64,000 bases of DNA from Dipylidium caninum (taxonomy: Eukaryota; Platyhelminthes; Cestoda; Cyclophyllidea; Dipylidiidae): contig QEYB01000273.1 in the NCBI GenBank assembly GCA_017562135.1, positions 1 to 64,000 of the forward strand, written 5' to 3'. The position numbers were made by a program, and so were the translations under genes. The notes beneath the pieces are model-generated. The model had not been told where the DNA came from and ran no database searches. It saw only the letters and a list, made by a program, of their open reading frames with translations. How positions within the stretch are numbered: position 1 is the first letter of the stretch; each line of letters starts with the position of its first letter. Positions 7,487 to 62,902 of the stretch are shown piece after piece.

Positions 7487-8180
7487 CTATTTTTTTGTTT
7501 GGGGCACTCGACATGTGGCATTGCGCATAGCCGACATGAAGGCGGCTACGAGGCCTTCGCGGATGCTTGTCTCCTCAGCCGACTGCTGGTGTCCCACGAA
7601 AACTTCTGCAATTTCGTGGTCCCAGGTCTTCACCATCGTGAATGCACCTTCGTCCCTGTTATAGCGGATGCGACCCCTGTATTTCAGTGAGACGACTTTG
7701 TGACTGCGAAAGTGCACGCAACTGAAGGGGAAGAAAGAGCGCAGTAACAGTGGCTACTTGACGGAAACGCACTAGTATGTTGGCAGATGGTATTCCACAT
7801 AGTTGATCGGCATGTTGCGAAGTTGCGTTGAGAAATCAAATTCATCCGCGTTACTGCCAATCTGTTGGAGGTTGATGGTCCACTTTGCGGCCCTTAAATC
7901 TGCCCACCAAAATTTCTCATAGTCCGCACTCTTGAGTATGGTTTGATTAAAGGTTTCATAAGCAAATTGAGTGGCAATTTTCGTGACATCACTCTGCAAA
8001 TGGCTACTTGCGTGTGGTTGACACTGTCCTAGAAAGCCAACAGTTAACATGTCACAGCAATGAGGTACTTGAAAATGATGGGGTCCTGTAGATGAGCAAA
8101 TTCTCTTGCTGTGGAGTTGCGCACAAAGAGGAGGTGAGAAAGCATGTCTGAATGGTGAGGAGGGCAAGCACAAGAAACAT
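7487..8180 (-). CDS. Small secreted protein of the three-exon family (intact, 200 aa)
   Basis: I do not recognise this protein. Exons read 8180-8069 (112 nt), 8028-7773 (256 nt) and 7721-7487 (235 nt), giving 603 nt and 200 residues. Introns are 40 and 51 bp; the first is GT-AG, and the second uses a GTGCGT donor and a TTCAG acceptor. Residues 1-21 form a hydrophobic signal peptide ending in LCA. Exon 2 starts with Cys40, then a probable helix containing D51, A56 and E62, a WW pair at 78-79, and Trp87, which aligns with Trp92 of the other members. Cys193 lies near the C-terminus, so a Cys40-Cys193 disulphide is possible. Splice phases (1, then 2) and exon 2 length match the other members exactly. 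The ATG lies 5 bp after the stop of another minus-strand frame, behind TAATCTAG. The role is unknown; extracellular action is inferred from the signal peptide. Confidence 0.75.
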
Positions 8181-8185
8181 CTAGA

Positions 8186-8446
8186 TTATAGCCTTTTCAG
8201 TAGGTCGATGTGTTTTCTTATCCATTCGGCCCCATTCGCCTTTATATCCTGCATGAGCTGTTGGCTTATCGACCATTGGCTTGAAGTCAGTTCGCGCAAC
8301 GGGGTGTTCGTCGCAAGTTGCCACCGACGCGCGCCTTTCCACAGATTCACCTCGTAATAAACCCGTGAATTGACACCTTTGCGGCGTAGCACATGAACTA
8401 ATGCGATGAGACGAGGTTGCCACAGTTGGTTTAATGCTGAGTCCAC
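8186..8446 (-). CDS. Exon-like frame ending 5 bp upstream of the 7.5-8.2 kb gene
   Basis: An 86-codon frame, conserved with few changes at 52.62-52.88 kb, ends in TAA only 5 bp before the ATG of the next gene. It contains four Trp residues and a C-terminal basic helix (about EWIRKHIDLLKRL). Its arrangement of beta-like segment then helix resembles family exon 3. In the right copy the frame stays open to 52,992. I could not define its splice sites, so it may be the last exon of an upstream paralogue in a polycistron, or a relic. Confidence 0.4.
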   Translation of the reverse strand: MDSALNQLWQPRLIALVHVLRRKGVNSRVYYEVNLWKGARRWQLATNTPLRELTSSQWSISQQLMQDIKANGAEWIRKHIDLLKRL

Positions 8447-8769
8447 GGTGGTGGTAAATGTGCCAATTACCTTGCAAATTGTCTTACCAATCTTTCGGCA
8501 TTTATTCGCCCTACCTAAAGATGGGGGACCGACATCGATTCACCCGGCCTTAGCAAGTACGCTGTAACTGAAATTGTCGCTCGTGGTTAGTTATCTTGCG
8601 GGATGTGGAAAGAAAGGTCACTTCACATCACATCACAGGAATTGGAGTGGGCTGTCCTGACGGCGTTAAATTAACGTTGCAATAGACCGCAGTTGCTGGC
8701 AAGGCGGTTCGGGTCTGGCAGATTTCGCCGTTTCCTCCCTAATAACGCGGATTTGCAGATGAAGAAAGC

Positions 8770-8870
8770 CAATAGTTCACATGGAAGTGAGTAGATAGGC
8801 TGTCACAGGTCAACATTATGCAGACGTCTGTCTTCACGAAGGCCTCCTCCAATCCTCTCCACTTACATAG
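8770..8870 (-). pseudogene. Truncated exon 1 and promoter of the secreted family
   Basis: ATG at 8,816 (-) follows a TATGTAAG-type box (8,869-8,862). The signal-peptide codons are shortened by internal deletions and then run into an unrelated flank. The related region of the right duplicate (about 54.98-55.03 kb) has lost most of this segment. Confidence 0.5.
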
Positions 8871-9129
8871 GCTTTGCGAGAAAGTGTTTCGGTTATCTAG
8901 TTCAGCAGGGTGGATGTAGTGGTGTGAGTTCACCTCGTGTCCCACCATAAGGACAATGGAAACTACTTGATGGACTAAAAATACTGGTCCTTACTACCTT
9001 TGATGACCCCCTAAACATGCCCCCAATTTTGGGCCTTGTTTCAGAGTGTGGTTGGTGCTCTGCCATGGAGGTGAACGCGAGCCCAAGTGAGTCCACTGGT
9101 GGCGTCACTCCTGTTGACGCAGTTAGGTG

Positions 9130-11050
9130 AACGAGCAGCCTGGTTTATTGCTCAGAGATATCTTCCTCTAAATTTACTTAAGTAATTCCTACGATATGTA
9201 GTGCAGGATTTCCCCAGATCCACCTAAATTGCTTTACTCAACACTGCGTGTCGACATCTCGCATCCACTTCTTGCTGCCATCATCCGGATTGACATACGA
9301 ATTTGTTTATCGCCAGTCCTATCGTTTCATAGCCACTGTGGAATCAATTTCATTGCCAAGCGGATCTGTGCACTGACGTTCAGGAGAGGAGGACAGTGTA
9401 TGACTTCTCATAAACATCTGCGGATTCCTTCTCATGCCATCAGTGAATCCAATGTCGACAGGAGAAGATGTTTATCTTGAATGGATATAAGCGCAAAGCG
9501 ATAACATGGCGCGTGATAAATGGATTTGGTACCTAACCTGGAATAACTCGTTCCTACTTCTACTCACCTCTCCTTAAATCTCTTCATCCCATTTCCATGT
9601 CCCCTTCTCGAAATGCCGGACCTCAGAACCCTCGCTGCCCTTCTACTTATCACCTCCTCTTGACCATCTTCCCCCGGCGCATGTTTGGCTAACATGACTG
9701 CAGCTGCAGCTGCAGCTGCAACTGTGGCCAATGCGCCAATGTTGGGTGACACATATTACATGCGCTGCCATGTCACATTCAATCCCAGTTCACTACACAC
9801 TCTTCTGGGAATGCTAATGTCTCGAGGTCGAAGCACGAGCCCCATGCATTGCTTTCGGGTTGAAGTGACCTTCCTCTCTAGTGCCAAGGAAAGTGGCTTA
9901 CAGTATGGTCTGGTGTGAAGGAGGGAGTTCTACTTTACATTGCCGCAAGAAACCAACCACAGCGAAAATGGAGTCTTGGTACACGCGTTCTTTCAGAGAT
10001 CAGTGGTGTGAAAACCAATACGACAGCTGATGACAGCCGCTTTACTCACGCAACTTGAAGGGAGAAAAGGAGAGCACAGAGTCAGTAATCGGCATATTTC
10101 ATCTCAAGTCTGGTATAAGAGGAGACGCCTCAGTAGTACTCGAGTTTGGATTTGCAAATTCACCCTCTAAATGTGAGAAGAAAGTGGCGAAGAAGAGACT
10201 AACTGGTGCTACATCAACCACCATGGGGTGACTGAGGAGAAGCATCAATATATCTTCTATATAGAGGAAGTGCGGAATGGTGTCACTGAAATTGCAGTTC
10301 GTGGTTAGTTATCTTGCGGGATGTGGAAAAGACGGCCCCGTCACTGCACGTCACGCGATGGCTGCAGGCTCTCATACTCAAACGAATGAATTAGGCACAC
10401 TTTCTAACTGCTGGAAATGCGGTCCGAGATAGTATTTGTAAAGAAGTATCTCATAGCAGTATATCAGTCACACTGGTGAACGACATCTCCTGTTCTCTTG
10501 AAGTTATCGTACAAGGGAACAAAGGCAACAACATGGAAGCCCTACATGTTCTTCTGGCGGCAGTTGCTGCTGGACAAACTTGAAAAACACCGTGGACTCC
10601 CTGAGAAAACCTCTGCCTTCAGCCCACGACACCTGCATTTGGCTAGTCAAGTCAGCCCCATAAGACGGGAATGTTAGCTGGTTGGAAGACTCTCCTCATT
10701 CCGTGTAGTCCACCTTCGGCATTTGTCCACTCTGCCGAAAGATGGTGTGCCGATGGTTGTGTCTGTCCTGTTTCGTTTCGGCAGGTGTGTTCGTAAGCTG
10801 GGGAGGTCTTACGGTGTCGAGGAAAATTGCCGGACATTGGAGCAAATGCTTTGGGGTTGCCAGTGCCTTGGCACTTGGCCAGAGAGCACAGCCAAATTAC
10901 AGTCTGGCCCACGTGATCTGTTTCTCAGTGCAGAAGGACGCCCATTATTGTTGAAAGCCAACTCCGATGAGATAACAGCCAACTGTGCAGTGTTGAGCAG
11001 TTGACCCGACAGAGCCGATGTCATCGGGAAGTAACCATCTCCGCAGATAC
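9130..11050. other. No intact gene; conserved 5' flank material and microsatellite
   Basis: 9.1-9.5 kb resembles the 5' flank found upstream of family exon 1 at 40.3-40.7 kb (inverted) and 38.9-39.5 kb. The rest has no supported feature. The right duplicate has lost several blocks of this region. Confidence 0.5.
9698..9720 (+). repeat. (CTGCAG)n microsatellite
   Basis: CTGCAG hexamers, shortened in the related copy at about 39,360-39,375. Confidence 0.9.
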
Positions 11051-12072
11051 TGCAGCCAAATAGGCAACCTAGAGCGTGGGGCATCACGGTCATTTAAACA
11101 AAACACTTCTGCCGCATCCGAGAGTTGTCATTCTCATAGGCAGCATATGAACCCACAAAGAGTTCTCCGAACTGGTGGATGGAGGGCGCCTCGCAGAACG
11201 AGGAGGCCCCATGTCACATGAGCGCATTACTCGACTGGTGCTATTGTGGCTTTAACTGACAAATGATACATTAAAATTTATTAATAAAAATGCAACGTTA
11301 TTCAGTTGTTTACTTCAGTTTTGCCGATAAACTTTTGCCACTGCCATAGCGCTTCTGATTTTTGCTATCAAAACCTGAATCAAGTGTGATTTGCCATTTA
11401 AGGGCTTCTAGGTGGAAAACATATGTGGTTGTCCAAAAGCGCGAAGTGAGATTTACATGGGGAATGCGTGGGCAGAAGACTAAACGCCCTCTGTCTCCTC
11501 ATCTTATTGCACTGGCGAGAAATGCCGAAGGCAGGATAAATGGAGTGGGCAGAATCTTCCAGCTAACACACATTTCTGTCTACTACTGAGGCTGATCTGT
11601 GCGTTAGCAATAACCTCAGCTCTCCGGACAGGAAGAGACCCTGGTCGTCACAGACGGAGAATCACGGGCAAATGCTTGAAGAAGTCCATAATTACCTTTA
11701 ATGCACATATCGTCTAAATTGCCTTCTTTGCCTGCAGCACCGGAGCCTCAACAAGCAACGCTGTTCATACACCTGAGATGGCAGCCCTTTTCTCACTAGA
11801 CCATGTCGCTCTCCACGTCTAAAGTAGAATGTGAACAGAACGAAAGCTCAGTGCTCCTCAGTTGGCTGCTCTCTCACTGCAGTGGACCCCGAATAATTCA
11901 TGCATGGTCTGAGTGGGATGAGGTTGCTGCGGCTGATTGTGAATTGGACATTATCGCACCGGCTGGACGATGGCTGAACTCAAGGCGGATGGGATCTGAC
12001 TGCCTTCATCCCACCTCCAAGCAACCGACTCTTTTGGGGCAAAAAGGCCGCTATTTCAAGTGAAGAGCATAG

Positions 12073-12078
12073 TTTATT
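12073..12078 (-). terminator. Poly(A) signal of the 12.1-kb gene
   Basis: AATAAA on the minus strand, about 43 bp after the stop. Confidence 0.65.
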
Positions 12079-12120
12079 GAGATACAAATGGCGCGTAACT
12101 TGGGTTAGGCAGCAGTTATT

Positions 12121-12866
12121 CTATGTGAGTCGACAAGCAGCATTTAGAGTGGATGAGTTAAACCACCTCACGACTTTCCTCCGAATACTCTCCTTGTGAT
12201 ATGCCAACGACTCATCTAAGACTGCATCCAACACATGATATTTCCGAGCCTTGTGTACGGTGACCGCATGCAATGACTTATCAACTCGGAAGAATGCTGT
12301 GAATTCAAAGGCCTTGATGATGTAGGCGCCACGAACCACTCTGTTGGAAAGGAGATGTAGTAGGGGTGGAAAGTGAGTCTACTTTAGGCAACATTACCTG
12401 TGAATATTTTGGGTTGTAAGAACGAGGTCGAAGAAAAGATTTTGAACTGACACTGAAATTTCAAACTCCCGATCAGCCACAACTACTTTACTCAGAGTGG
12501 TCCTCCACGTGCATTTCCCCAAATCGGCCAACAAATACCGTATTCCGTAGCTTTCTCCGATCAGCATAGTTCTGAAAATCTCGTAGGTCAAGTGCTTTGC
12601 CACTCTCATTATATCCTGATGCTCATTGACGATGCTTCGTGGCTGACAAAGTGCTGTGACGAGATAGATGCATATTATAAGAGTTGCATGAATTCATCGA
12701 GTAAAGCACTTGCCGAGAGATAAAAAAGCAGAAAATTACACGCCATATTTGTGATGCTGGAAACATGGAGTGCATCTTCTGTCTCATGCGACGCCGTTGA
12801 ACATGCGAAGACGTTGATGTGAGAGGAGAGGAGGCAGAGAAGATGCGTTATTACGAAGATGAACAT
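12121..12866 (-). CDS. Small secreted protein of the three-exon family (intact, 200 aa), left arm
   Basis: Exons 12866-12740 (127 nt), 12653-12398 (256 nt) and 12340-12121 (220 nt) give 603 nt and 200 residues; donors are GTAATT and GTAATG, acceptors ACAG. Residues 1-21 are a signal peptide with a leucine-rich core, followed by a short Ser/Thr/Glu stretch. Exon 2 carries Cys45, a probable amphipathic helix (about 53-75) including D56, A61 and E67, then Cys90, Trp92 and a beta-like segment around 93-110. Exon 3 has alternating hydrophobics followed by a basic helix, and ends with Cys197. TATATAAG is 49-56 bp upstream of the ATG and AATAAA is about 43 bp after the stop. It lies on the left arm of the large inverted repeat and pairs with the gene at 62.2 kb. 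Function is unknown. Confidence 0.82.
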
Positions 12867-12914
12867 TTTGCTGAACTCTGCCTTCACGGAGGCCTCTTTC
12901 ACTCACTCTCAGCA

Positions 12915-12922
12915 CTTATATA
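12915..12922 (-). promoter_or_regulatory. TATA box of the 12.1-kb gene
   Basis: TATATAAG, 49-56 bp upstream of the ATG, embedded in GCCTATATAAGTG, which recurs before other family genes. Confidence 0.75.
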
Positions 12923-12999
12923 GGCTTTACAGAAAAGTGTATTGCTACAGCAGGGTGAATGCGCTGGTGTTTGCTTACGTTGTGTTGAACCACGGGGAC

Positions 13000-15430
13000 G
13001 ATGGAAACTAATTATTGGAGGAGAAATTCAGGTGCCGACTACCTTTGATGGTCAATTAAACTAACCCCCATTTCGCCTGCCCACCTCTCCATCAAATAAA
13101 CAAACGCAGACCTTTATACTGCGGGGTAAATCTGTACATGATCAGTCACCAAAATAAAATTACCATACCCCACGTGAGATGATTCCTAAGAGGGCTAGTA
13201 ATTCACATCTCGCCTTCAAATACTGATATCTCCTCGTTTCCGTAAAGCAACACATGGCAGCATTTTAATGGACATGGGCACCTAACACCGTCATATTTCA
13301 TTTGAAAAGCAGAGGATGGAAAGCATTCAAATTGACCCTTTTGGTTGACGCCACAAGGATTTTGTAGGCCCCACGAGAGGCACTGTGAGATGCGATATAA
13401 TGAAAGTCGGGAATTGGAGTATTATCAAGAAGAGAATATTCACTTGTGTAAGTTGTGTATTCGTAATCTCCTCAAAAGCCGCACGAAATCAGATTCGAGC
13501 TCGCCTGACAGTCTTAAAACCCCAATCGCCGCGGAGGAAGAATGCACTGTGTGCACAAAGTGGACAAGGGAGAAATTGTGCAACACGTGTTAGGAGAGGT
13601 GTTTAGTTAGCCTTATGCATTGAAGGGACGGAAAGAAGGATCAGCGGTTTCGTTGCAGAGGAGAATTTGGGACAGGCAAGAGAAGCTACACAGTAGACGG
13701 TGAAGGCATGTAATGCGGCCATTGGGAAGGCTATCGGGTCAGTGAGCCTGGCAATTTGTCAGTCTGCCTCATTTCGGTCCACCTATGCATGCCTGCATTA
13801 TTTGCCCCTTAATGCAAGATCCGGGATAGGCTGGGCCAGTTGCAGGCATACTGCATGAACCCTCGCTTCCCTCTTTTCCTGCTAACCAGGTAAATCACTT
13901 TTTCGTGTTTACTTGACGTTATCGCCAATCTCTTCACCGTGTTCCAAAAAGTTGAGCGCCAGCCTTGTCAAAGGGGTACGTCATCAAGAGCTCCCGTTTT
14001 CAGTCAGGTATTCCTCAGCCACTTGCATCTACCGGCAATGATGACTCCAACTGTGGTATACTCTTATGCGCCCACACATGCAGGCACTAACAGCCTGAAT
14101 CTATTTATTTGACCACGACTTAACTGAGAAATCTCGTCAACACCTGAACGAAGTCAAATTGCATGTGCAAGCATGTTCAATTGGAATATAAAATACAGGT
14201 GGAAAGTGGGATTCTGGTTTACAATAACCAGGTTACTTGCTGCTTGTGGCGCGATGAAAAGGCAAACAGGTACCAGGACACCCACGGTGTAGGGGGTAGA
14301 GCCTTGCCTCCACGGCCTGTAAGTGGGTGGTAATCTTGCAAAATTAGGTGGAATCCGAGCCTCATCGACACGATTGCCCTCCTCACCTCCCAGACTTAGA
14401 ACGTCTACGCCCAGAAGGTTACATTCTGCTGCCGGACTTCAATGGGATGTTTTGGATCTCTGTACGGTGATTGCACCTCAGTTTGGGGTGATGTATGGGC
14501 GAAGGAGATGTCTATCACTGTCGTCTGCGTCCTGTTCTGCTACTCGACTTCACATCTTTACCGCACAAGCCTGACTTCTTATCATTTTATCCACCTCTTT
14601 CATAATCGCCCCGTCGAACGCGCTCTGAGCACACTGCATTCTGCGTTCCACGTCACTCTGTCAATTGTCGAGCACTGTCATTAGATATTGGGATGTAATG
14701 TAAATCAAATGATGATTGATGATGGCGTCTGCGAAGCACATTCGTGGGTCTTTGTGGGAAAGAGTGATAATGATCGGGAGAATGATCTGATTGATGTTTA
14801 AAAAGCTTCCTCATTGGCATCCCACTACAAAATTTTGAGGATGTGCTCCACGCTCCGTATTGCGTGTGAGGCGAGAATTGCGAAATGGTGTGTGTGTGTG
14901 CCGTACCCCATGCCGTATCCTTTAAGGCAACTCGAAAGGGAGTGGAAGCACTTAGTCAGACATCGTGTAAGATGTGAGATTTTCAAGGAAACGGTCAAAT
15001 ATGGGTGGGTGGAGGAGAGACTTTTTGCCTCGGCTCATCGGTGAATGTGCCCATTTATTTGGCTCTTCAAATGGCCGTGACACATGGTCATACGAGGCTC
15101 AAATATATTGCAGCCGAGCATTATACGTAGCAGTTTCTGATTGGCACACGACTAAGGCGCTACCGAATGTGCACAACGAATTGTCCTCTGCCCAGTTGAC
15201 AGCATTCACCGAACACAGAGTCCCTTCGACAGATTCAAGAGCGCGGAATACATTACTCTGTCTGCATGACGCATGACTGCCGTGACACAAACCATTTTTT
15301 TCAGAAGTGACTATGTGTGTTCGATCCATGGGGCACGAGTCCCACTAACGGAACACTGAAAACTTGTTGTGGGTAGAAACGATTAATCCCTGACTACCCT
15401 AATCGACAAAGTAATTGGGCTCCATTTCGC
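13000..15430. other. Inverted-arm interior without a supported gene
   Basis: Contains parts of the dispersed element (14.5-14.7 kb) and frames such as 14,814-15,044 (+), 76 codons and conserved in the mirror arm with few changes (LRIACEARIAK...). The mirror conservation alone does not show coding. Confidence 0.4.
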
Positions 15431-15439
15431 CTCCCCACT

Positions 15440-16134
15440 TCTCTACCAAGCAAACAGCGCCTCATGAGATGGAAACGGAACTCTGTGTTTTTACCTCCAG
15501 AGTGCTTGCGGAAAATTGTCCGTCTTCTAGTCCCTCATCAAGTGCCTCACTTATCGCCTATCACATCACCCTCATACGACACGTGTTACTCGTTACGCAG
15601 CACCTTCTCAGCCACAGAAAATTGTCAACTAGCTCCACGACTTAATGGTGGCCTACAAGACTTGCAGGAGCATGTTGATCGTACATACGCCTAGAACACG
15701 GTACTTGCCCACCGTTTTGTGAAAATCCAAATGAAGGACCACTCTGAGTGAAGGTGGTGAGGATGGTCGGTTGTTTCAAGTTTCAGTGCTAGTTGAAGGG
15801 CTACCCTTTGGCCTCGTTCACAGCACTCAGGCGTTTCGCGGATAATGTGGCTTGAAAATAACTGCAAGTTGCGCCGTTCATTGCATCTCATCTCCAACAG
15901 GCCAATCCGCGACGCCTACGTCATCAAAGCATTTGCATTCACAGGAATATTCCAAGTTGACAGGCCGTTGCGAGAGGCGTCTATTCTCGAGCTTAGGGAA
16001 CCATCAAGTGCTGGATAGAGTTGCCCCTGTGTCGTTGACAAGTCTCAAGGAGAGTATTAGAGAGAAAGTTGTGGTGGGATTTAATTCACTTAGTTCAAGT
16101 GTCGCTTGTCAACACACCTACACTGATTACTCTC
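15440..16134 (+). pseudogene. Decayed secreted-family gene on the left inverted-repeat arm
   Basis: The 3' part of exon 1 (about 15,460-15,520) has lost its donor (GGAAAATT for GGGTAATT), and no signal peptide or TATA box precedes it. Exon 2 (about 15,600-15,830) contains stops and indels. Exon 3 begins at 15,901 after CCAACAG, keeps the GDAYVIKAF-like start as RDAYVIKAF, then shifts frame mid-exon before a recognisable ESIREKVVVGFNS segment. The mirror copy is at 58,971-59,640. Confidence 0.7.
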
Positions 16135-16499
16135 CTAGCTTGCCTCGCATTGTCTGCAGCATCTGTGTCTCAATTAAGTCATCTCTTCTCGCTGAATGGT
16201 GGCCTTTTGTCAACGAAATCCTACCCGACCTGGCCATTCAAACACTTCTGTCTAATCTGCTATGCTCTTTATAAATAGCTGCAATTTGCCAGTCCCTCTT
16301 ATTACTTTTAATCCTTTCTACTCTATCTTCTACATTGGTCTTGTGGCAGTTTAATCATGGGGAGAAACCAGCCGAACGCAGCAGTGCAACAGTCTTACTC
16401 GTATTCCACAAATGAAATTGAGCAGAATAGGACTGTACCGAGATCGCAGCGCCTGCAGTAAGACAGCAAGCATGGAGGATGAGTGGACTCATTCGCCCG

Positions 16500-17720: not shown

Positions 17721-18388
17721 CTAAACGAGTCGACACGCAGCACTTGAAATGGAAGAATTTAAGGTCAGCACAACATTCCTTCGAATGTTCTCCTTGAGAT
17801 TTGCCAAAGACTTATCTTCAACTCGATCCAACACGCGGTAGCTCTTGGCCTCCAGTACGGAGATCTCACCCAGTGACTTATCAACTCGAAATAGTCCTGT
17901 GAACTCGAATGTCTAAATGATTTAGGCGCCGCGGAGTATGATGCTAGAGGAGAGAAGAATTGAAAGGCGCAAAATGTGCCTCAATTTGTTAGGCCCCCTT
18001 ATTTTTCTTAATCCTTTCTACTCTATCTTCTGCATTACTCTTGTGGCAGTTTTAGTCATGGGGAGAAATCAGCCAAACGCAGCTATGCAACACTCTTACT
18101 CGTATTCCACGAGTTAACTTGAACAGGAGGATGAGTGGACTTATTCGCCCGGCGGAAGTTGTAGACTCGACTTCTCTTGCAAAGAAAAGGCCAATTCGAG
18201 GGATTGGAGGAGTTCACTGGGGATCGGGTTACGGTGAATGTCGTAGGGTTGCGCAACTGGACTCATTGAAAATCGCCAAAGTGGATAACGAGTACTGTGT
18301 TTCAGTACATTCTCTGATATTTTCCCCTAAGTGTCCAGCGACAGATGTTTCACCACTCGTCTTACATCGTGGAGCTCATTGACGAGGT
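17721..18388 (-). pseudogene. Secreted-family relic: exon 3 with two stops and a scrambled exon 2
   Basis: Exon 3 spans 17940-17721, exactly 220 nt, and reads well from FEFTGLFRVDKSLGE to SSAACRLV, but two early codons are TAA and TAG and the acceptor CAG is changed to CAT. About 200 bp upstream, 18,388-18,140 (-) is recognisable as exon 2 from the start, through a VVKHL-like segment, with several frame breaks. No exon 1 was found. The downstream flank (17.1-17.7 kb) matches those of the 37.7 and 40.7 kb copies. Confidence 0.65.
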
Positions 18389-27106: not shown

Positions 27107-27815
27107 TCACATTAAAGTTGAATGGTAGCCAGCCTTAATGGCGTTCACGATGACCTCTTCCAAATGCGGAGACAAGAGGGTGAAGTGCATATGCTTCACA
27201 GAGTATTTCCATGCCTCGTTGACCCATACTTTGCCCCGTCGGCGGTTGTACTTGAGTTCGACTATAAAACTAAGCTCCCCAATGCGGCTCACATCACGTC
27301 GGATGGGGCTGAAGAAATGGAGTAGAAGGAGGAACAATAGGATTCCGACAATGCTTACTTGCTGCGCGTTTTACGGATTAAGGAATTGCTAATTTGAATA
27401 TCCCTTGCTGACAAGGAAACCACAAACGCATCAATTTCTGCTTTATGTTCTACCAAGGTCGACCTCCACTCAGAGTGATTCGTTTCGAACCACCAGTATC
27501 TCCCCGAGAACAGGTCTTCCAGCCTCAACTGTGTCAGTGTTTCCGAGGCCAACTGATGGGCAATTTTCAAAATATCCAGGTGGATGTTATTAATACGCGG
27601 TATCCGACAGGGAACTAGGAGGAGAAAGTGGGAGTACGGAGCGATGATGCAATGGAAGGTGAAGAAAGGCGACAGTGGGTTTGCTAACCTTCTCCTTCCT
27701 CATTAATGTGAATGAGGACAAGTTCGTCCGGATTGTAGTCTTTCAAATCGCCTCGCAGCCCAGCGATGGCAAAGGTCACATAGATGAGTAAAACACGAAT
27801 GGAATACAGGGACAT
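27107..27815 (-). CDS. Small secreted protein of the three-exon family (intact, divergent, 194 aa)
   Basis: Exons 27815-27689 (127 nt), 27614-27359 (256 nt) and 27308-27107 (202 nt) give 585 nt and 194 residues. Introns are 74 and 50 bp. Both are GT-AG (donors GTTAGC and GTAAGC; acceptors CTAG and TTCAG), in phases 1 and 2. Residues 1-22 are a signal peptide (basic, then a hydrophobic run, then GLRG). Cys45 and Trp92 keep the 47-residue spacing, and D56, A61 and E67 also match the other members; a WW pair sits at 83-84. Unlike its relatives, the protein ends in STLM with no C-terminal Cys. A TATAAAA box lies 56 bp upstream of the ATG. The identity to other members is low, which makes the fixed exon lengths strong support that this is a true gene. 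No second full copy exists in the window, although exon 1-like sequence recurs at about 24,190-24,275 (+). Confidence 0.8.
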
Positions 27816-32380: not shown

Positions 32381-32925
32381 GACATGTCTACATTCGTGGT
32401 GGTCTACCTTCTCGGCCTCTTCACTTCCCATTTCATCATCTCCGCATGTTTAACGGCTCCCCATGAAGCAAAGCGACGGCTTGGGAGTGGTCCAAATGTC
32501 ATTCTCCGCATTACTAGGCATGCGGGGTACTGAAATTTCATACTCCCGACCAACCACAACTGCTGTACTCAGAGTGGTCTTCCATGTGCAGTTCTGCAAA
32601 TCGGCCAGCAAGTATGGCGTTCCGCTGATTTCACCGATCAACATTGTCCTGAAAATCTCGTACGTCAGGTGTCTTGCCACTCTCATTATACCGCGATGTT
32701 CACTGACGATGTTCGAGGGCTGACAAGGTGGTATGTGACCATGGGGTTTGGTGCATGCTTTGAGCAAGGCACGTGTTGGGGGATAGAAAGCACAACATTA
32801 CTTAGCACATTGAAAATGATGGAAGCATTTAGTGCTGCGTCTGTCTCATGCTGCGACTCGAAGCACGTGAAGACGATGAGGTGGGAGATGCGCTATCACG
32901 AAAATGGATGTCTTGCAGAAGTCTG
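32381..32925. pseudogene. Scrambled secreted-family locus: plus exon 1 facing minus exons 2 and 1
   Basis: 32,381-32,470 (+) encodes a family signal peptide (start MSTFVVVYLLGLF) ending near APHEAK. It runs straight into an inverted exon 2 at 32,730-32,475 (-), which is open and typical (IVSEHRGIMRVARHLTYEIF, then Cys and Trp) but has TAC in place of the CAG acceptor. Further upstream on the minus strand, 32,925-32,820 is an exon 1 whose ATG is lost. No exon 3 follows. This is a rearranged, non-functional locus. Confidence 0.65.
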
Positions 32926-37730: not shown

Positions 37731-38477
37731 CTAAACCAGTCGACAAGCGGCACTTGAAATGGAAGAATTAAAGGCCAACACAATATTCCTTCGAATGTTC
37801 TCCCTGAGATTTGTCAAAGACTTATCTTCAACTCTATCCAACACGCGGTAGCTCTTAGCCTCGGGTACGGAGACCTCACCCAATGACTTATCAACTCGAA
37901 ATAGTCCTATAAACTCAATGCCTCAATAATGTAGGCGCCGCGGAGCATGCTGCTAGAGAAGAGAAGGATTGAAAGGCGCAAAATATGCCTGTGTTAGAGA
38001 ACATTACCTTTCATTCTGTTGGGCAGACAGGATGAGGTCAAAGATAAGTCGTTCTCCTAGCACTGAAATTTTTAAACTCCCGACCCTTCACAACAACATC
38101 GTGCAGAACGGTCCTCCAGGTTGAGTTCCCCAAATCGGCAACCAAATGTCGTGTTCTGGGTATGTCTCCTATCAACATGCTCCTGAAAGTCTCGTAGGCC
38201 AAGTATTTCGCCACTCTCAATATGTCTTGGGACTCAGTGGTGATAGTCTTTGGCTGACAAAGGGCTGTGTAACGAGAGAGAGATGCATCGTGTGGGGATC
38301 TTGTGCAATGGGCGAGGCATCTGGCCAGGAGGTAGAAGATAAGAAATTACCCATGGGCTCTCTGGAGATGGTGACATAGAGTGTCACGCTCGTCTCTTGC
38401 TGCCGGCCGGAGCACGCGAAGACCGTAAAGTGGGAGGTGAGGAAGCCCAGTAGATAAGCTGTCACGAAGATGAACAT
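37731..38477 (-). pseudogene. Secreted-family gene with compensating-size indels in exons 2 and 3
   Basis: Exons 38477-38351 (127 nt), 38264-38008 (257 nt) and 37949-37731 (219 nt). Exon 2 has one extra A in a run after the codons for REFK, and exon 3 has lost one T near its start. Both are homopolymer-type changes and each shifts the frame. Exon 1 is open and encodes a good signal peptide. TATATAAA lies at 38523-38530 and AATAAA at 37668-37673. Closest relative is the copy at 40.7 kb, with which it forms an inverted repeat. Confidence 0.75.
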
Positions 38478-40733: not shown

Positions 40734-41484
40734 ATGTTCACCTTCGTGACAGCCTGTCTACTCGGCCTCCTCACCTCCCACTTCACCGTCTTCGCATGTG
40801 CCGACCGGAAGAGTGAGACGCGCACGACAATCTATGCTTCCACCTCAAGAGTGCTCACGGGTAATTGTCTAAATTTCACTCGCTCATCTGATGCCTCGCT
40901 CACTTCATTGTATACGATTCTCACACGATGCATCTCTCTCGCCACACAGCACCTTGTCAGCCACCGGCCATCGCTACCGAGTCCCAAGACGTAATGTGAA
41001 ATTGCTAAGCACTTGGTCTACGAGACTTTCAGGAGCATGTTGATAGGCGACATGCCCAGAACTCGACATTTGGTCGCCGATTTGGGGAAATCCACCTGGA
41101 CGACTGTTCTGCACGATGTTGTTGTGAAGGGTAGGGAGTTTAAAATTTCAGTGCTAGGAGAACGACTTATCTTTGACCTCATCCTGTCTGCCCAACAGAA
41201 TGAAAGGTAATGTTCTCTAACACAGGCATATCTTGCACCGTTCAATCCTTCTCTTCTCTAGCAGCATACTCCGCGGCGCCTATATTATTGAGGCATTTGA
41301 GTTTATAGGACTATTTCGAGTTGATAAGCCACTGGGTGAGGTCTCCGTACTCGAGGCAAAGAACTACGGTGTCTTGGATAGAGTTGAAGATGTGTCTTTA
41401 ACAAACCTCAAGGAGAACATTCGAAGGAATGTTGTGCTGACCTTCAACTCGTCCATTTCAAGCGCCGCGTGTCGACTCGTTTAG
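40734..41484 (+). pseudogene. Secreted-family gene with a single +1 frameshift in exon 2
   Basis: Exons 40734-40860 (127 nt), 40950-41206 (257 nt) and 41265-41484 (220 nt) follow the family plan exactly except for one extra base. The insertion is near the start of exon 2, where GTAATG stands for GTATG, and brings TGA into frame. If that base is removed, 603 nt remain open, with signal peptide, Cys45, Trp and C-terminal Cys all present. TATATAAG is at 40681-40688. Because only one base is wrong, this could be a functional gene with an assembly error or a very young pseudogene. It forms a head-to-head pair with the copy at 37.7-38.5 kb. Confidence 0.75.
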
Positions 41485-45779: not shown

Positions 45780-46545
45780 ATGACGATCCTCGCGACCGTC
45801 TATTCACTCGGCCTCCTGACCTCCCACCTCACCATCTTCGTGTGTTCAACGGCTCCCGCATGAGACAAAAGTGGCAGTCTACGTTTCCACCTCCAAAGTA
45901 CTCACAGGTAATTGCCTATCATCCATCCAGTAAGCGAGTTTATCCCTCACTGAATTGTACACGACCCTCATACGATACATCTCTCTCGTTACACAGCACC
46001 TTGTCAGCCACCGACCATCGTCACTGAGCAGCAGGATATCATGAAAATGGCGAAACACTTGACCTACGAGACTTTCAGGCGCATGTTGATCGGAGATTTT
46101 AGCAGAACACGACATTTGGTGGCAGATGTGGAGAAATCCACATGGAGGATTATTCTGCGCCAAATGGTTGTGGATGGAGGAGAGTATACAATATCAGTGA
46201 TAGGAGAGCGGATTCTCTTTGACCTCATCCTGTCTGCTCACGAGAGTCACGCGTAACGTCTCCTCACATAGGCCCCTTTTGCGCTCTTCATTCGTCCTCT
46301 TCTCTAACAGTGTGTTCGGCGGCGCCTACATCGTGGAGACATTTGAATTCACAGGACTACTCCGAGTTTGCATGTTACTGGGTGAGGTCTCCGTACAGGA
46401 GGCTGGGCACTATTGCGTGCTGGATTCAGTCGCAGACGCGTCCTTGACAAGTCTCAAGGAGACCATTTGGAGGAAGGCTATGGTGGGCTTTAATTCATCC
46501 ATTTCAAGTGCTGCTGTCGACCCACCTAGAATAGCTGCTGTCTAA
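45780..46545 (+). pseudogene. Secreted-family gene with exon 1 frameshift (right copy)
   Basis: Exons 45780-45907 (128 nt), 45997-46252 (256 nt) and 46311-46529 (219 nt) plus a readthrough to 46,545. Exon 1 has one extra base in the codons after the signal peptide (GCTCCCGCATGAG where the intact 62.2-kb gene has GCGTCGCATGAG), giving TGA. Exon 2 is fully open. A missing T near the end of exon 3 removes the C-terminal Cys and extends the frame by a few codons. The TATA box is weakened to TGTACAAATG. The exon 1 shift is shared with the 1.9-kb copy, so it predates that duplication or is a feature of both; that argues for real decay rather than read error here. Confidence 0.7.
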
Positions 46546-47879: not shown

Positions 47880-48250
47880 TTTCGACGGCTGACAAGGTGG
47901 TTTGGAAAGGCGAATGCAGTGCTTAAAGTGCGTGGTCGACGAAAAAGCGATGAAACATATGGACAGAATGGTGTGAAGTCAGTGTTGTACAGTGAATAGA
48001 TGAAAACTAGGAGCATCCCACACGTTTCATGCGGCACTCAGGCTGCATGAAGCGGTCGTGACACATGCCTTGGAAGCACGGTTATTGTTCACACTTTGTG
48101 AGGGTTCGGTGTCTGCTTGTCCCTTCGTTACAGTACGAACAGCCCGTAAGCTGATCAGTGGCACCCACAACCCAACACTTCCGCCTGAAATGGTAATCAT
48201 GGCAAGATTGTTGTTTTCATAGATTTTTGTTAGGAAGGGGAACACAAGAT
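47880..48250 (+). repeat. Dispersed non-coding element, copy at 47.9 kb
   Basis: Closest to the 31.4-kb copy. Short frames in it (for example FRRLTRWFGKANAVLKVRG) are shared between copies but are interrupted at different points in each. Confidence 0.55.
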
Positions 48251-49035: not shown

Positions 49036-49255
49036 CTAAGTGAGTTGAGAACAAGTATTTTAAGTGGATGAATTTAAACCCCTCACAAATTTCCCCCAAA
49101 TACACATTTTGTGATATGCCAAGAACTCTCCTACCACTCTATCCAGCATATTATAATTCCAAGCCTCGTGTACGTCGACTTGTAGTAACGAATTATCAAC
49201 TCGGAAGGATGCTGTAGATTCAAGAGCTTTGATGATGTAGGCGCCAGGCACCACT
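49036..49255 (-). pseudogene. Orphan exon 3 of the secreted family (right copy, premature stop)
   Basis: This is 220 nt like intact exon 3 and starts after TTTCCAACAG. It is open for about 65 codons, then ends at TAA (49,060) about seven codons before the family stop position, because one base differs from the left copy. AATAAA (48,972-48,977 on the minus strand) follows. Exons 1 and 2 are missing. Confidence 0.65.
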
Positions 49256-51924: not shown

Positions 51925-52615
51925 TTATTTTGTTTGGGGCACTCGACAGGTGGCATTGCGCATAGCCGACGTGAAGGCGGCTGTGAGGCCTTCGCGGATG
52001 CTTGTCTCCTCAGCCGACTGCTGGTGTCCCACGTAAACTTCTGCAATTTCGTGGTCCCAGGTCTTCACCATCGTGAATGCACCTTCGTCCCTGTTATAGC
52101 GGATGCGACCCCTGTATTTCAGTGAGACGACTTTGTGACTGCGAAAGTGCACACAACTGAAGGGGAAGAAAGAGCGCAGTAACAGTGGCTACTTGACGGA
52201 AACGCACTAGTATGTTGGCAGATGGTATTCCACATAGTTGATCGGCATGTTGCGAAGTTGCGTTGAGAAATCAAATTCATCCGCGTTACTGCCAATCTGT
52301 TGGAGGTTGATGGTCCACTTTGCGGCCCTTAAATCTGCCCACCAAAATTTCTCATAGTCCGCACTCTTGAGTATGGTTTGATTGAAGGCTTCATAAGCAA
52401 ATTGAGTGGCAATTTTCGTGACATCACTCTGCAAATGGCTACTTGCGTGTGGTTGACACTGTCCTAGAAAGCCAACAGCTAACATGTCACAGCAATGAGG
52501 TACTTGAAAATGATGGGGTCCTGTAGATGAGCAAATTCTCTTGCTGTGGAGTTGCGCACAAAGAGGAGGTGAGAAAGCATGTCTGAATGGTGAGGAGGGC
52601 AAGCACAAGAAATAT
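51925..52615 (-). CDS. Duplicate of the 7.5-kb secreted-family gene, start ATG changed to ATA
   Basis: Exons correspond to 52615-52504, 52463-52208 and 52156-51925. All three remain open with the same splice sites, for 200 codons including the stop. The initiator is ATA instead of ATG and no nearby in-frame ATG replaces it. In the two later exons, I count five amino-acid changes (Thr to Ala; Phe to Tyr; Val to Thr by two base changes; Met to Thr; loss of a terminal Lys) and three silent ones, so the body of the protein is still conserved. Either the gene is newly inactive, or translation starts on an AUG delivered by a trans-spliced leader joined after TCTAG, which would be in frame. The mature domain keeps the Cys/Trp pattern of the family. 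Confidence 0.6.
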
Positions 52616-52620
52616 CTAGA

Positions 52621-52992: not shown

Positions 52993-53934
52993 ACTTACAC
53001 CAGCGCCCCCAAACCATTCTCTGTGTTCGAAATCATCTCAAATGAGGAGATTCGAGGGATGACCGTTCCAAGCCCAATGCAAAGGAACGTGATTCACAAA
53101 TTTGAGTACGAGACATTTCGCCAGAACGCAGTAGGAGAATTTAGCTAAACAGAAAAGGGCAATTCACGATTTAGTGCCTATTTAGCAGAAAAGAATCGGA
53201 AACGAAATTGTGCCACTTGGTGGTCACCTCAACTAAAATAACTTGTCTGAGAATCGTCGGGGACTGAAATCTTGTGTCTGAACTTAATGAAATGCCCGAC
53301 GCTCTACCTCTCGTCATTGCCCATGGGGGACACTTGGAAATGGGCAATGCATGTCCTATCAAAGTAGGTGGTTTAGCAGAGTGAAGCTAGCCGGCACCTC
53401 CGAATTCCCTTACATTGTCTGCACTTTGTTGGGGATCAGAAAATTACCACCCTCTCCTTGTTTTTGATACTCCTTTAAATGCTGATAAACAAACACTGAA
53501 CGTCCGGCCTGATTGACGCCTTCTCCATGGTGAGGAGGCGGTTCTTATGGGGACAAATTGAAGTGGTCACAGGGGTCTCGGCATTGTTGGCACGGAGGCA
53601 GCAATTAAATGTTTATGATCCAGTGTCGTGGACCTCCTCCATGGACCAGACCAGACGTGATCAGTTGCCGTGGTGGTGATGGACATGGGGAGCCACAGAG
53701 ACAAGGAGATCACGAGGAAGTAAGGCATTGCAAACGGGCTCATTGGTGTCTCGATTAGCTACCCAAAAGAGCCACTTAGCAATGAGCTGCATCAAGTCTG
53801 AACGTCAGATTTTGTGCAACGTGGGGAAAGTAAACAGCAGCACACCAACTCTACTGGACCAAAACACTTTCTCGAATGTCCTAAATAAGTGCGAAGGAGT
53901 GAAGGAGACTTTCGTGAAGTCCAAGTTCAGCGCA

Positions 53935-53997: not shown

Positions 53998-55939
53998 TTG
54001 CTGTTTTGAGAAGGTGGGCAGCGTGTGCCCGATTTGAGTAAAGTCCCGTCAGCCTCGTTGTGTGTACGGTGTCAATTTGCGAATTCAACACGCCAAATTA
54101 TGCCATTTCTCGCCATAACAAGATATGAAAACAGATAATAAGAACAGAGTATGGTCAACATTTCAAGTCGCAAGTATGGGCTGTGAGTTCCCATATCAAG
54201 CCAAGGTGCTGCCCACGCCAAACAGGAAGTATCCTGCAACAACAGATCTGTATGAAAGCTCAGAGCGAAATTGCCATGAAGCGGCCTCAGTGCGATTTCC
54301 TCAACGCCAGAGAGTTAAACGCTATCCGAGAAGAATGTCCAGAGTAAGTGTTAAGCGACAACCACTTACGTAACACAAAGTCTATGAATTCCCAGCAAAC
54401 CGTCTTCCATTCCACCAATGGCTGCTGACCGGATTGTACAACATCCGATTTCGTTAACAGATGAACACTGTCTAGCATAGGCGATGTGGATGGTGCAAAG
54501 GCTACTCATTCTTCCATCTGGGTGAGCCACAGTGATGCCACCTTGGCACTCGCCGAACTCTCGCTCACCCGCATGGCAAAAGCAGAATCCACTCACTGAG
54601 AAAGCCTTTGCACCCAGTCGACAGTGCCTTCAGTTGACCGCACCAGTCGGCGTCCAGGAGACTGAAATGTTAGCCAGTTGAAACACTCTTACCAATCTTT
54701 CGGCATTTATTCGCCCTACCTAAAGATGGGGGACCGACATCGATTCACCCGGCCTTAGCAAGTACGCTGTAACTGAAATTGTCGCTCGTGGTTAGTTATC
54801 TTGCGGGATGTGGAAACAAAGGTCACTTCACATCACGTCACAGGAATTGGAGTGGGCTGTCCTGAAAATTAACGTTATAGACCGCAGTTGCTGGCAAGGC
54901 GGTTCGGGTCTGGCAGATTTCGCCGTTTCTCCCCTAATAACGCGGATTTGCAGATGAAGAAAGCCAATAGTTCACATGGAAGTGAGTAAGAGGCTGTCAC
55001 AGGTCAACATTATGCATACGAAGAAAGTGTTTCGGTTATCTAGTTCAGCAGGGTGGATGTAGTGGTGTGAGTTCACCTCGTGTTCCACCATAAGGTGGCA
55101 AACTACTTGATGGACTAAAAATACTGGTCCTTACTACCTTTGATGACCCCTAAACATGCCCCCAATTTTGGGCCTTGTTTCAGAGTGTGGTTGGGTCTGC
55201 CATGGAGGTGAACGCGAGCCAAGTGAGTCCACTGGTGGCGTCACTCCTGTTGACGCAGTTAGGTGAACGAGCAGCCTGGTTTATTGCTCAGAGATATCTT
55301 CCTCTAAATTTACTTAAGTAATTCCTACGATATTTAGTGCAGGATTTCCCCAGATCCACCTAAATTGCTTTACTCAACACTGCGTGTCGACATCTCGCAG
55401 CCTTGTTTCATAGCCACTGTGGAATCTGATTGTCTGTGCACTGACGTTCAGGAGAGGGACAGTTTATGACTTCTCATATACATCTGCGGATTCCTTCTCA
55501 TGCCATCAGTGAATCCAATGTCGACAGAGAAGATGTTTATCTTGAATGGATATAAGCGCAAAGCGATAACATGGCGCGTGATAAATGGATTTGGTACCTA
55601 ACCTGAATAACTCGACCACTTTCCACTTACCGACATCAGAGAGAAAAGTGAGAAGAAAGTGGCGAAGAAAGAGACTAACGGGTGCTGCAGGGTGACTGAG
55701 GAGAAGCATCGCTGGTGTCACTGAAATTGCAAGTGCGGGATGTGGAAAAGACAACGTCACGCACGTCACGCGATGGCTGCAAACTCAAACGAATGAATTA
55801 GGCACACTTTCTAACTGCTAGAAGTGCCATCCGCTCATAGCAGTATATCAGTCACACGGTGAACGATCTCCTGAAGTGGCAGTGAGCCCACGACACCTGC
55901 ATTTGGCTATCAAGTCAGCCACTGGTTGGAAGACTCTCC

Positions 55940-58850: not shown

Positions 58851-58970
58851 ACTACGGGTAGGTTTTCGTTGACAAAAGGCCACCATTTAGCGAGAAGAGA
58901 CGACTTAATTGAGACACAGATGCTGCAGACAATGCGAGGCAAGCTAGGAGAGTAGTCAGTGTAGGTGAGT

Positions 58971-59640
58971 TGACAAGCGACACTTGAACTAAGTGAATTA
59001 AACCCCACCACAACTTTCTCTCTAATACTCTCCTTGAGACTTGTCAACGACACAGGGGCAACTCTATCCAGCACTTGATGGTTCCCTAAGCTCGAGAATA
59101 GACGCCTCTCGCAACGGCCTGTCAACTTGGAATATTCCTGTGAATGCAAATGCTTCCATGACGTAGGCGTCGCGGATTAGCCTGTTGGAGATGAGATGCA
59201 ATGAAGGGCGCAACTTGCAGTTATTTTCAAGCCACATTATCCGCGAAACGCCTGAGTGCTGTGAACGAGGCCAAAGGGTAGCCCTTCAACTAGCACTGAA
59301 ACTTGAAACAACCGACCATCCTCACCACCTTCACTCAGAGTGGTCCTTCATTTGGATTTTCACAAAACGGTGGGCAAGTACCGTGTTCTAGGCGTATGTA
59401 CGGACAACATCCTCGTACAAGTCTTATGGGCCAGGTGCTTCGTCACCACCATTAAGTCGTCGAGCTCGTTAACAATTTTCTGTGGCTGAGAAGGTGCTGC
59501 GTAACGAGTAACACGTGTCGTATGAGGGTGATGTGATAGGCGATAAGTGAGGCACTTGATGAGGGACTAGAAGACGGACAATTTTGCTCAGGCACTCTGG
59601 AGGTAAAAACATAGAGTTCCGTTTCCATCTCATGAGGCGC
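58971..59640 (-). pseudogene. Decayed secreted-family gene on the right inverted-repeat arm
   Basis: Reverse-complement partner of 15,440-16,134 with the same lost exon 1 donor and the same mid-exon 3 frame change, so the decay predates the inverted duplication. Confidence 0.7.
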
Positions 59641-62100
59641 TGTTTGCATGGTGGAGAAGTAGGCAGGCGAAATGGGTCGCACTTACTTTGTCGATTAGGG
59701 TAGTCAGGAATTAATCGTTTCTACCCACAACACGTTTTCAGTGTTCCTTTAGTGGGACTCGTGCCCCATGGATCGAACACACATAGTCACTTCTGAAAAG
59801 ATGGTTTGTGTCACGGCAGACATGCGTCATGCAGACAGAGTAATGTATTCCGCGCTCTTGAATCTGTCGGAGGGACTCTGTGTTCGGTGAATGCTGTCAA
59901 CTGGGCAGAGGACAATTCGTTGTGCACATTCGGTAGCGCTTAGTCGTGTGCCAATCAGAAACTGCTACGTATAATGCTCGGCTGCAATACATTTGAGCCT
60001 CGCATGACCATGTGTCACGGCCATTTGAAGAGCCAAATAAATGGGCACATTCGCCGGTGAGCCGAGGCAAAAAGTCTCTCCTCCACCCACCCATATTTGA
60101 CCGTTTCTTTGAAAATCTCACATCTTACACGATGTCTCACTAAGTGCTTCCACTCCCTTTCGAGTTGCCTTAAAGGATACGGCATGGGGTACGGCACACA
60201 CACACACCATTTCGCAATTCTCGCCTCACACGCAATACGGAGCGTGGAGCACATCCTCAAAATTCTGTAGTGGGATGCCAATGAGGAAGCTTTTTAAACA
60301 TCAATCAGATCATTCTCCCGATCATTATCACTCTTTCCCACAAAGACCCACGAATGTGCTTCGCAGACGCCATCACCAATCATCCTTTGACTTACATTAA
60401 ATCCCAATATCTAATGACAGTGCTCGACAATTGACAGAGTGACGTGGAACGCAGAATGCAGTGTGCTCAAAGCGCGTTTGACGGGGCGATTATGAAAGAG
60501 ATGGGTAAAATGATGAGAAGTCGGGCTTGTGCGGTAAAGATGTGAAGTCGAGTACCAACGATGGTATTTCATGCGGCACTCTGTAGCAGAACAGAACGCA
60601 GACGACAGTGATAGACATCTCCTTCGCCCATATATCACCCCAAAGTGAGGTGCAATCACCGTACAGAGATCCAAAAAATCCCAGTGAATTCCGGCAGCAG
60701 AATGCAACCTTCTGAGCGTAGACGTTATGAGTCTGGGAGGTGAGGAGGGCAATCGTGTCGATGAGGCTCGGATTCCACCTAATTTTGCAAGATTACCACC
60801 CACTTACAGGCTGTGGAGGCAAGGCTCTACCCCCTACACCGTGAGTGTCCTGGTACCTGTTTGCCTTTTCATCACGCCACAAGCAGCAAGTAACCTGGTT
60901 ATTGTAAACCAAAATCCCACTTTCCACCTGTATTTTATATTCCAATTGAACATGCTTGCACATACAATTTGACTTCATTCAGGTTTTGACGAGATTTCTC
61001 AGTTAAGTCGTGGTCAAATAAATACGCTCAGGCTGTTAGTGCCTGCATGTGTGGGCGCATAAGAGTATACCACAGTTGGAGTCATCATTGCCGGTAGATG
61101 CAAGTGGCTGAGGAATACCTGACTGAAAACGGGAGCCCTTGATGAAACACCCCTTTGACAAGGTTGGCGCTCAACTTTTTGGAACACAGTGAAGAGATTG
61201 GCGATAAGGTCAAGTAAACACGGAAAAGTGATTTACCTGGTTAGCAGGAAAAGAGGGAAGCGAGGGTTCATGCAGTATGCTTGCAACTGGCCCAGCCTAT
61301 CCCGGATCTTGCACTAACGGGCAAATAATGCAGGCATGCATAGGTGGACCGAAATGAGGCAGACTGACAAATTGCCAGGCTCACTGACCCGATAGCCTTC
61401 CCAATGGCCGCGTTACATGCCTTCGAAGTCTACTGTGTAGCTCCTCTTGCCTGTCCCAAATTCTCCTCTGCAACGGAACCGCTGATCCTTCTTTTTCGCA
61501 CCTTCAATGCATAAGGCTAACTAAACACCTCTCCTAACACGTATTGCACAATTTCTCCCTTGTCCACTTTGTGCACACAGTGCATTCTTCCTCCGCAGCC
61601 ATTGGGGTTTTAAGACTGTCAGGCGAGCTCGAATCTGATTTCGTGCGGCTTTTGAGGAGATTACGAATACACAACTTACGCAGGTGAATATTCTCTTCTT
61701 GATAATACTCCAATTCCCGACTTTCGTTATATCGCATCTCACAGTGCCTCTCGTGGGGCCTACAAAATCCTTATGGCGTCAACCTAAAGTATCAATTCGA
61801 GTGCTTTCCATCCTCTACCTTTCAAATGAAATATGATGGTGTTAGGTGCCCATGTTCATGAAAATGCTGCTATGTGCTGCTTTACGGAAACGAGGAGATA
61901 TCAGTATTTGAAGGCGAGATGTGAATTACTAGCCCTCTTAGGAATCATCTCACGTGGTATGGTAATTTTATTTTGGTGACTGATCATGCACCTAAATTTC
62001 TCCTCCAATAATTAGTTTCCATCGTCCCTGTGGTTCAACACAACGTAAGCAAACACCAGCGCATTCACCCTGCTGTAGCAATACACTTTTCTGTAAAGCC

Positions 62101-62108
62101 TATATAAG
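62101..62108 (+). promoter_or_regulatory. TATA box of the 62.2-kb gene
   Basis: TATATAAG at the same distance from the ATG as in the 12.1-kb partner. Confidence 0.75.
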
Positions 62109-62156
62109 TGCTGAGAGTGAGTGAAAGAGGCCTCCGTGAAGGCAGAGTTCAGCAAA

Positions 62157-62902
62157 ATGTTCATCCTCGTAATAACGCATCTTCTCTGCCTCCTCTCCTC
62201 TCACATCAACGTCTTCGCATGTTCAACGGCGTCGCATGAGACAGAAGATGCACTCCATGTTTCCAGCATCACAAATATGGCGTGTAATTTTATGCTTTTT
62301 TATCTCTCGGCAAGTGCTTTACTCGATGAATTCATGCAACTCTTATAATATGCATCTATCTCGTCACAGCACTTTGTCAGCCACGACGCATCGTTAGTAA
62401 ACATCAGGATATAATGAGAGTGGCAAAGCACTTGACCTACGAGATTTTCAGAACGATGCTGATCGGAGAAAGCTACGGAATGCGGTATTTGTTGGCCGAT
62501 TTGGGGAAATGCACGTGGAGGATCACTCTGAGTAAAGTGGTTGTGGCCGATCGGGAGTTTGAAATTTCAGTGTCAGTTCAAAATCTTCCCTTTGACCTCC
62601 TTTTTACAACCCAGAAAATTAACGGGTAATGTTGCCTAAAGTAAACTCACTTTTCACCCTTACTACTTCTCCTTTCCAACAGAGTGGTTCGTGGCGCCTA
62701 CATCATCAAGGCCTTTGAATTCACAGCATTCTTCCGAGTTGATAAGTCATTGCATGCGGTCACCGTACACAAGGCTCGGAAATATCATGTGTTGGATGCA
62801 GTCTTAGATGAGTCGTTGGCATATCACAAGGAGAGTATTCGGAGGAAAGTCGTGAGGTGGTTTAACTCATCCACTCTAAATGCCGCTTGTCGACTCACAT
62901 AG
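62157..62902 (+). CDS. Small secreted protein of the three-exon family (intact, 200 aa), right arm
   Basis: Mirror copy of the 12.1-kb gene. Exons are 62157-62283, 62370-62625 and 62683-62902, with introns of 86 and 57 bp. TATATAAG at 62101-62108 and AATAAA at 62945-62950 are both conserved. Exon 3 differs from its partner by one silent base in 220. Exon 2 differs at 19 of 256 bases, about 13 of them amino-acid changing: Ser to Arg, Asn to Ser and Glu to Lys before the helix, and Phe to Pro, Val to Leu, Leu to Phe, Asn to Lys, His to Asn and Arg to Gly near its end. The invariant Cys45, Cys90, Trp92 and Cys197 are kept. Two open genes with a diversifying middle exon and a frozen last exon suggest both are functional. 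Extracellular location is inferred from the signal peptide. Confidence 0.82.

Follow-up and report, generated by a model that had tools for sequence, protein, structure and literature searches.

The stretch of DNA analysed here (the window) comprises bases 1-64000 of the 106,270-base contig QEYB01000273.1 from the tapeworm Dipylidium caninum, whose assembly consists of 106,277,105 bases in 920 contigs. It contains numerous members of a multigene family with a fixed three-exon structure, and we consider it moderately probable that this family encodes secreted proteins resembling the TULIP (tubular lipid-binding) domain, which would bind hydrophobic molecules and whose genes duplicate and decay fast. 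The suggested products are cestode proteins of about 180-200 residues, in which a signal peptide and a short extension would precede a single domain of about 155 residues.

Gene structure

Four genes have all three exons open, namely those at 7.5-8.2, 12.1-12.9 and 27.1-27.8 kilobases (kb) on the reverse strand and at 62.2-62.9 kb on the forward strand (Table 1). They start with a hydrophobic exon 1 (phase 1 at its end), continue with an exon 2 of 256 nucleotides (nt; phase 2 at its end) and finish with a C-terminal exon of 202-235 nt; the introns measure 40-86 nt if the preferred exon 1 ends are used. All exons are also open in the copy at 51.9-52.6 kb (m52), but its start codon reads ATA. 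A first-pass annotation of the same DNA had proposed this plan, with a signal peptide in exon 1, as well as the coordinates of the loci and five open loci of which one had lost its ATG, and all of this was borne out when the three-exon frames were rechecked, the signal peptide as a hydrophobic, signal-like N-terminus; exon 2 measures 256 nt in each of the five open copies. It had further counted four disrupted full-length copies. Disrupted copies do exist, but four is too few, as at least six more near-complete copies of exons 2 and 3 are disrupted. Exons 2/3 are affected in the copies at about 2.2, 15.6, 38, 41 and 59 kb, the first exon in the copy at 46 kb, and fragments come in addition. 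The proposed exon junctions were generally upheld, except for the end of exon 1 in m12 and m62, which more likely lies at a GTAATT donor (127 nt) than at a weaker donor (64 nt), because the longer exon has the frame common to the sister copies and the length found in other members. In both genes it encodes the signal peptide plus about 20 residues. First-exon models, for which the accepted donors were listed by hand, were obtained for 18 of 26 genes whose exons 2 and 3 are intact, and 12 of these 18 are exactly 127 nt long. In m27 a consensus-like GTGAGT occurs at the stop codon (27040-27115, reverse strand) and a fourth exon is possible.

The fetched DNA, which comprises one complete contig, parts of three others and 12 short stretches, contains 32 full-length exon 2 copies, which are kin, were partly fetched for holding open frames and hence do not represent an independent sample. 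At the ends predicted by a profile of 15 members, AG was found in 31 of them, GT in 29 and both in 29. The profile search is blind to splice sites, whereas the 15 training members had been chosen partly by them; a second profile, for which four sequences of the window had been selected on the Cys/Trp motif alone, gave both GT and AG in 28 of the 32 copies. Among the 28 non-identical copies GT was present at the predicted position in 25, AG in 27 and both in 25, compared with maxima of 16 (GT, offset +5) and 13 (AG, offset +11) at 24 other offsets in the same copies. These sites are kept even between members that are only about 20% identical. Judged from the DNA, the transcripts would be spliced at the predicted junctions.

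Conserved residues, family size and coding constraint

All six frames of the window were scanned for a Cys-Trp pair with a spacing of 47 residues that is accompanied by two or more of Asp (+11), Ala (+16) and Glu (+22). This resulted in eight matches, all of which are family loci and seven of which carry Asp, Ala and Glu together. The gap-free arrangement of these five residues that had been described for the window was thus found there, but it does not extend in full to the family: in an alignment of 15 diverse members, hand-picked from the 26 intact genes with near-duplicates and others omitted, no variation occurs at Cys 2, Asp 13 and Trp 49 and Pro 4 reaches at least 90%, while Ala and Glu vary. 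The domain spans 151-162 residues in these members. A C-terminal Cys is present in 20 of the 26 genes, and the six copies lacking it fall in two subfamilies. To judge from the fixed Cys, Asp and Trp and the unchanging domain architecture, a core function seems to be conserved.

The 26 genes had passed a filter for splice sites, an uninterrupted frame and three or more of the five motif residues, and all of their proteins differ. Of their 325 pairs, 224 were saturated (synonymous divergence, dS, of at least 1.2), three lacked synonymous differences (non-synonymous ones: 4, 4 and 1) and 98 were usable. The ratio of non-synonymous to synonymous divergence (dN/dS) was below 1 in all 98 usable pairs, which overlap and are not independent, with a median of 0.44 and a range of 0.16-0.91.

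The strong expansion that had been supposed for this family with signal-like hydrophobic N-termini is supported at the level of the genome. Exon 2 queries from four subfamilies yielded 123, 53, 62 and 98 matches, which after merging (within 400 bases, same strand) correspond to at least 169 loci on 27 of the 920 contigs, a lower bound as only the best candidates were scored, with broken and partial copies counted in. On two contigs of 328,567 and 281,542 bases the listed matches are confined to the first 26 and 19 kb, respectively. Within the window, positions 7-8483 and 43846-52918 form a direct segmental duplication (96-98% identical over most of its length, 87% at the start) and positions 11052-16227 and 58855-64000 an inverted one (about 95% identical). 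These blocks make up much of the window and many family copies sit inside them. In its layout the family resembles a single rearranging array or a few of them, which would have broken the assembly. The guanine-plus-cytosine content is 46-48% across the window (4-kb steps) as compared to 41-43% at three nuclear loci elsewhere in the genome. Runs of at least two TTAGGG units were absent from the four long fetched stretches (about 256 kb) and the 12 short ones; in a genome-wide telomere-repeat search 3488 and 1959 matches were counted, with only the first places listed.

Since most copies in the window are broken and many lie in these large, mostly 95-98% identical duplications, most of them could be decaying passengers of a duplicating block that contains a handful of working genes, in which case copy number would tell nothing about function. 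We regard this as somewhat unlikely: the fetched part holds the 26 different genes described above, dN/dS stays below 1 in every scored pair and splice sites have been retained between very distant members.

Sequence relatives and known systems

The family had been called unrecognised, which holds true for the sequences in Pfam and PDB. Pfam searches with four and then 15 members gave only isolated weak matches that we judge to be chance (bMG6 at expect (E) values of 0.066 and 0.043, GH65C at 0.19), and the same applies to the sequence matches in PDB (aureocin 0.2, rhinovirus coat protein 0.12). Protein-database searches with two alignments (1769 and 415 candidates) found nothing under the cut-off. 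As regards tapeworms, nothing follows from this outcome, because a cestode control with a PF05596-type exon of the same genome found nothing either.

With regard to known TULIP proteins, PF01273 (CETP/BPI/PLUNC) gave no match at E up to 10 with the 15 members, in a search whose HMMER filters drop most matches above about 0.1, and none of the matches to a BPI-type exon in the genome passed the cut-off (best E 0.69). The core of CETP/BPI/PLUNC proteins comprises at least 175 residues (PMC5507252), which exceeds the domain found here. The cestode family thus differs from BPI/LBP/CETP and SPLUNC1/BPIFA1 in its shorter core, its three short exons and the lack of detected sequence similarity; moreover, the BPI disulfide joins elements 5 and 6 (PMC5507252), whereas the cestode proteins have Cys at both ends of the domain. 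Takeout/JHBP and the group 7 allergens such as Der p 7 are arthropod proteins; the cestode family is smaller and matches none of their Pfam profiles. No report of a tapeworm TULIP or BPI family was found in a literature search that misses most subscription papers, and the accessible parts of PMC9128525, PMC5036155, PMC4413821 and PMC5634658 name none.

Antigen B genes, like the present ones, have a signal-peptide exon followed by a domain exon, and antigen B subunits are smaller (about 8 kDa). They belong to a different Pfam family, PF05596, which is absent from the Pfam matches of the members described here and has five matches over the cut-off elsewhere in the same genome. The likeness lies in antigen B/HLBP being a cestode-specific multigene family with a proposed part in parasite-host lipid transport, as given in the accessible text of PMC4358968. 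For EG95/TSOL18 a fibronectin type III domain would be expected; no such Pfam match was obtained and the predicted order is helix-strands-helix.

It is unlikely, in our opinion, that the family is part or a short branch of the GP50 diagnostic antigens, surface or secreted glycoproteins with tandem and dispersed duplication, which would place it at the immune interface and not among lipid carriers. GP50 is likewise a tapeworm-specific, highly divergent family, duplicated in Taenia, Echinococcus and Hymenolepis (accessible part of PMC5036155), and potential signal peptides are given for all of six highly expressed isoforms of E. multilocularis, a glycosylphosphatidylinositol (GPI) anchor for only one of them (accessible part of PMC4836691). 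Several GP50 homologues, however, as far as the available text extends, match T. solium GP50 at E values of 5e-65 to 9e-68 with about 38-41% identity, and such values suggest that GP50 proteins are longer than those of the present family. By description, GP50 proteins are apparently longer and in some members GPI-anchored. GP50 itself might share a TULIP-like fold, in which case this reading and that of lipid carriers would merge. It is also possible that the family is identical with an already named tapeworm 'expressed conserved protein'.

Predicted fold

At the level of structure, the description of the family as unrecognised has to be modified, as the predicted models tentatively place it in the TULIP class of lipid-binding folds. 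The model of m62 contains helix 10-27, strands 48-58, 62-79, 102-124 and 129-144 and helix 147-169. Short strands (30-32, 38-42, 172-175) and a helix encoded by the intron (95-101) come in addition, and the model of m8 has the identical element order. In the order of its elements the model agrees with the six-element definition of TULIP domains, i.e. helix, four-strand meander, helix (PMC5507252). In addition, the predicted models resemble solved TULIP domains over the whole domain: the ten best TULIP matches of the better model align 131-146 residues over positions 6-176 with scores of 8.1-10.8. The first Cys (residue 2) lies in a beta bridge in this model and the end bearing the last Cys is a strand, which fits the disulfide by which the Cys at both domain ends probably tie the ends together.

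Two observations weaken the case for a TULIP fold, namely low TM-scores (template-modelling scores) and a full-length Aha1 match. The domain may have an NTF2-like, Aha1-like or other helix-plus-sheet fold, its likeness to TULIP being merely a common arrangement, which we consider rather improbable: isomerase and ARC6 matches align about 100 residues and cover only model residues of about 5-143, leaving out the C-terminal helix, which the best TULIP matches include. A dynein-light-chain reading, taken from a helix motif, was dropped, since dynein light chains have no C-terminal helix and no Pfam match was found.

That the proteins are ligand-free variable antigens or decoys, diversified to confuse host antibodies, seems quite improbable, for although expansion, divergence and clustering would fit such a role, which is presumably common in secreted parasite families, it is opposed by the fixed Cys, Asp and Trp, the constant domain architecture and the absence of any sign of positive selection in dN/dS at the pairwise level.

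Other features of the window and genome

The m8-type genes are preceded by an open frame of about 105-138 codons that closes shortly before them (8189-8539 and 52624-53037, both reverse strand). It has 12 matches in the genome, nine of them without stops and down to 65% identity, at 10 places that each adjoin one of 11 strong m8-type copies; it gave no Pfam match and may be a linked second gene. Blocks at about 55024-55402, 8790-9285 and 23570-24100 are homologous to DNA upstream of other family genes. Because neither exon 2 nor exon 3 turned up in the profile search around the 55 kb block (52.5-58.9 kb), upstream or first-exon modules may have been duplicated alone. Ten other open reading frames of the window had no Pfam match at E 0.01, and the window contained no Rfam match over the gathering score and no tRNA.

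COX1 matches occur on three contigs of the same genome. C637 (27,030 bases) has a full-length COX1 that is open under code 9, and matches on C471 (36,636 bases) and C261 partly carry TAG or TAA stops; possibly these are a multimeric mitochondrial contig plus divergent or nuclear copies. The mitochondrial COX1 is open under the invertebrate code as well as the flatworm code, and translating AAA as Asn suits positions that are conserved in this protein. It was PF05596, a cestode-specific family according to PMC4358968, that marked the genome as that of a cestode; PF01060 had no match, nor did it have one in any control genome. A triosephosphate isomerase exon agrees at 90 of 100 residues with PDB 6oog, the enzyme of Taenia solium.

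Table 1. Exons, broken copies and fragments of the gene family in the window
Feature	Position	Strand	Basis or remark
m8 exon 3, intact gene, ends in stop	7487..7721	-	open frame; exon 3 profile match
m8 exon 2, 256 nt	7773..8028	-	Cys/Trp motif, profile
m8 exon 1, signal peptide, 112 nt, phase 1	8069..8180	-	
m12 exon 3, intact gene	12121..12340	-	
m12 exon 2, 256 nt	12398..12653	-	Cys/Trp motif, profile
m12 exon 1, 127 nt, GTAATT donor	12740..12866	-	alternative 12803-12866, donor GTTCAA
m27 exon 3, intact gene, without C-terminal Cys	27107..27308	-	
m27 exon 2, 256 nt	27359..27614	-	Cys/Trp motif, profile
m27 exon 1, 127 nt	27689..27815	-	
m52 exon 3	51925..52156	-	
m52 exon 2, 256 nt	52208..52463	-	Cys/Trp motif, profile
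m52 first-exon region, start codon ATA	52504..52615	-	sequence comparison with m8
m62 exon 1, intact gene, 127 nt, GTAATT donor	62157..62283	+	alternative 62157-62220, donor GTTCAA
m62 exon 2, 256 nt	62370..62625	+	Cys/Trp motif, profile
m62 exon 3, ends in stop	62683..62902	+	
m46 exon 2, 256 nt, open	45997..46252	+	profile
m46 exon 3, open, C-terminal Cys lost	46311..46545	+	exon 1 disrupted in comparison with sister copies
Broken copy, exons 2 and 3	2150..2671	+	profile search
Exon 3 fragment	4595..4786	-	profile search
Broken copy, exons 2 and 3	15609..16112	+	profile search
Exon 3 fragment with stops	17727..17939	-	profile search
Exon 2, 3' part lost	32522..32728	-	motif scan, profile search
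Broken copy, exons 2 and 3	37737..38262	-	motif scan, profile search
Broken copy, exons 2 and 3	40992..41478	+	profile search
Exon 3 fragment with stop	49039..49254	-	profile search
Broken copy, exons 2 and 3	58964..59491	-	profile search

Conclusion

If the proteins are secreted TULIP-like lipid binders, the predicted succession of one helix, four to five strands, of which three are long, and a second helix would give a curled sheet that encloses, together with the two helices, a hydrophobic groove as in the TULIP domain, and the putative disulfide would sit at the head of the tube. Outside the cell, possibly at the host interface, such proteins would bind hydrophobic ligands, i.e. host fatty acids, sterols and phospholipids and perhaps also lipids from bile or bacteria, and would transport or sequester them to the benefit of a worm reliant on the lipids of its host. 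In a worm that harvests host lipids, as stated for Echinococcus granulosus in the accessible part of PMC4358968, host lipid would be the likely cargo. Segmental duplication and quick decay of the genes could widen the range of ligands or alter surface epitopes.

Lipid-binding proteins named in the accessible parts of cestode papers are antigen B/HLBPs (PMC4358968) and a fatty-acid-binding protein (PMC5036155). A further suggestion, which we offer only tentatively, is that cestodes have made a TULIP radiation of their own, with more than 150 gene copies, relics included, for compact secreted lipid carriers tied by a disulfide, which arose in a few rapidly rearranging arrays, different members taking different host, bile and bacterial lipids, and that this would be a host-lipid capture system parallel to antigen B and much larger.

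If the TULIP-like reading is true, the family would supply a further class of proteins to be considered as lipid carriers, diagnostic antigens or stage markers, would extend the TULIP fold to a radiation missed by sequence searches and would provide a clear flatworm case of a fast birth-and-death gene array.

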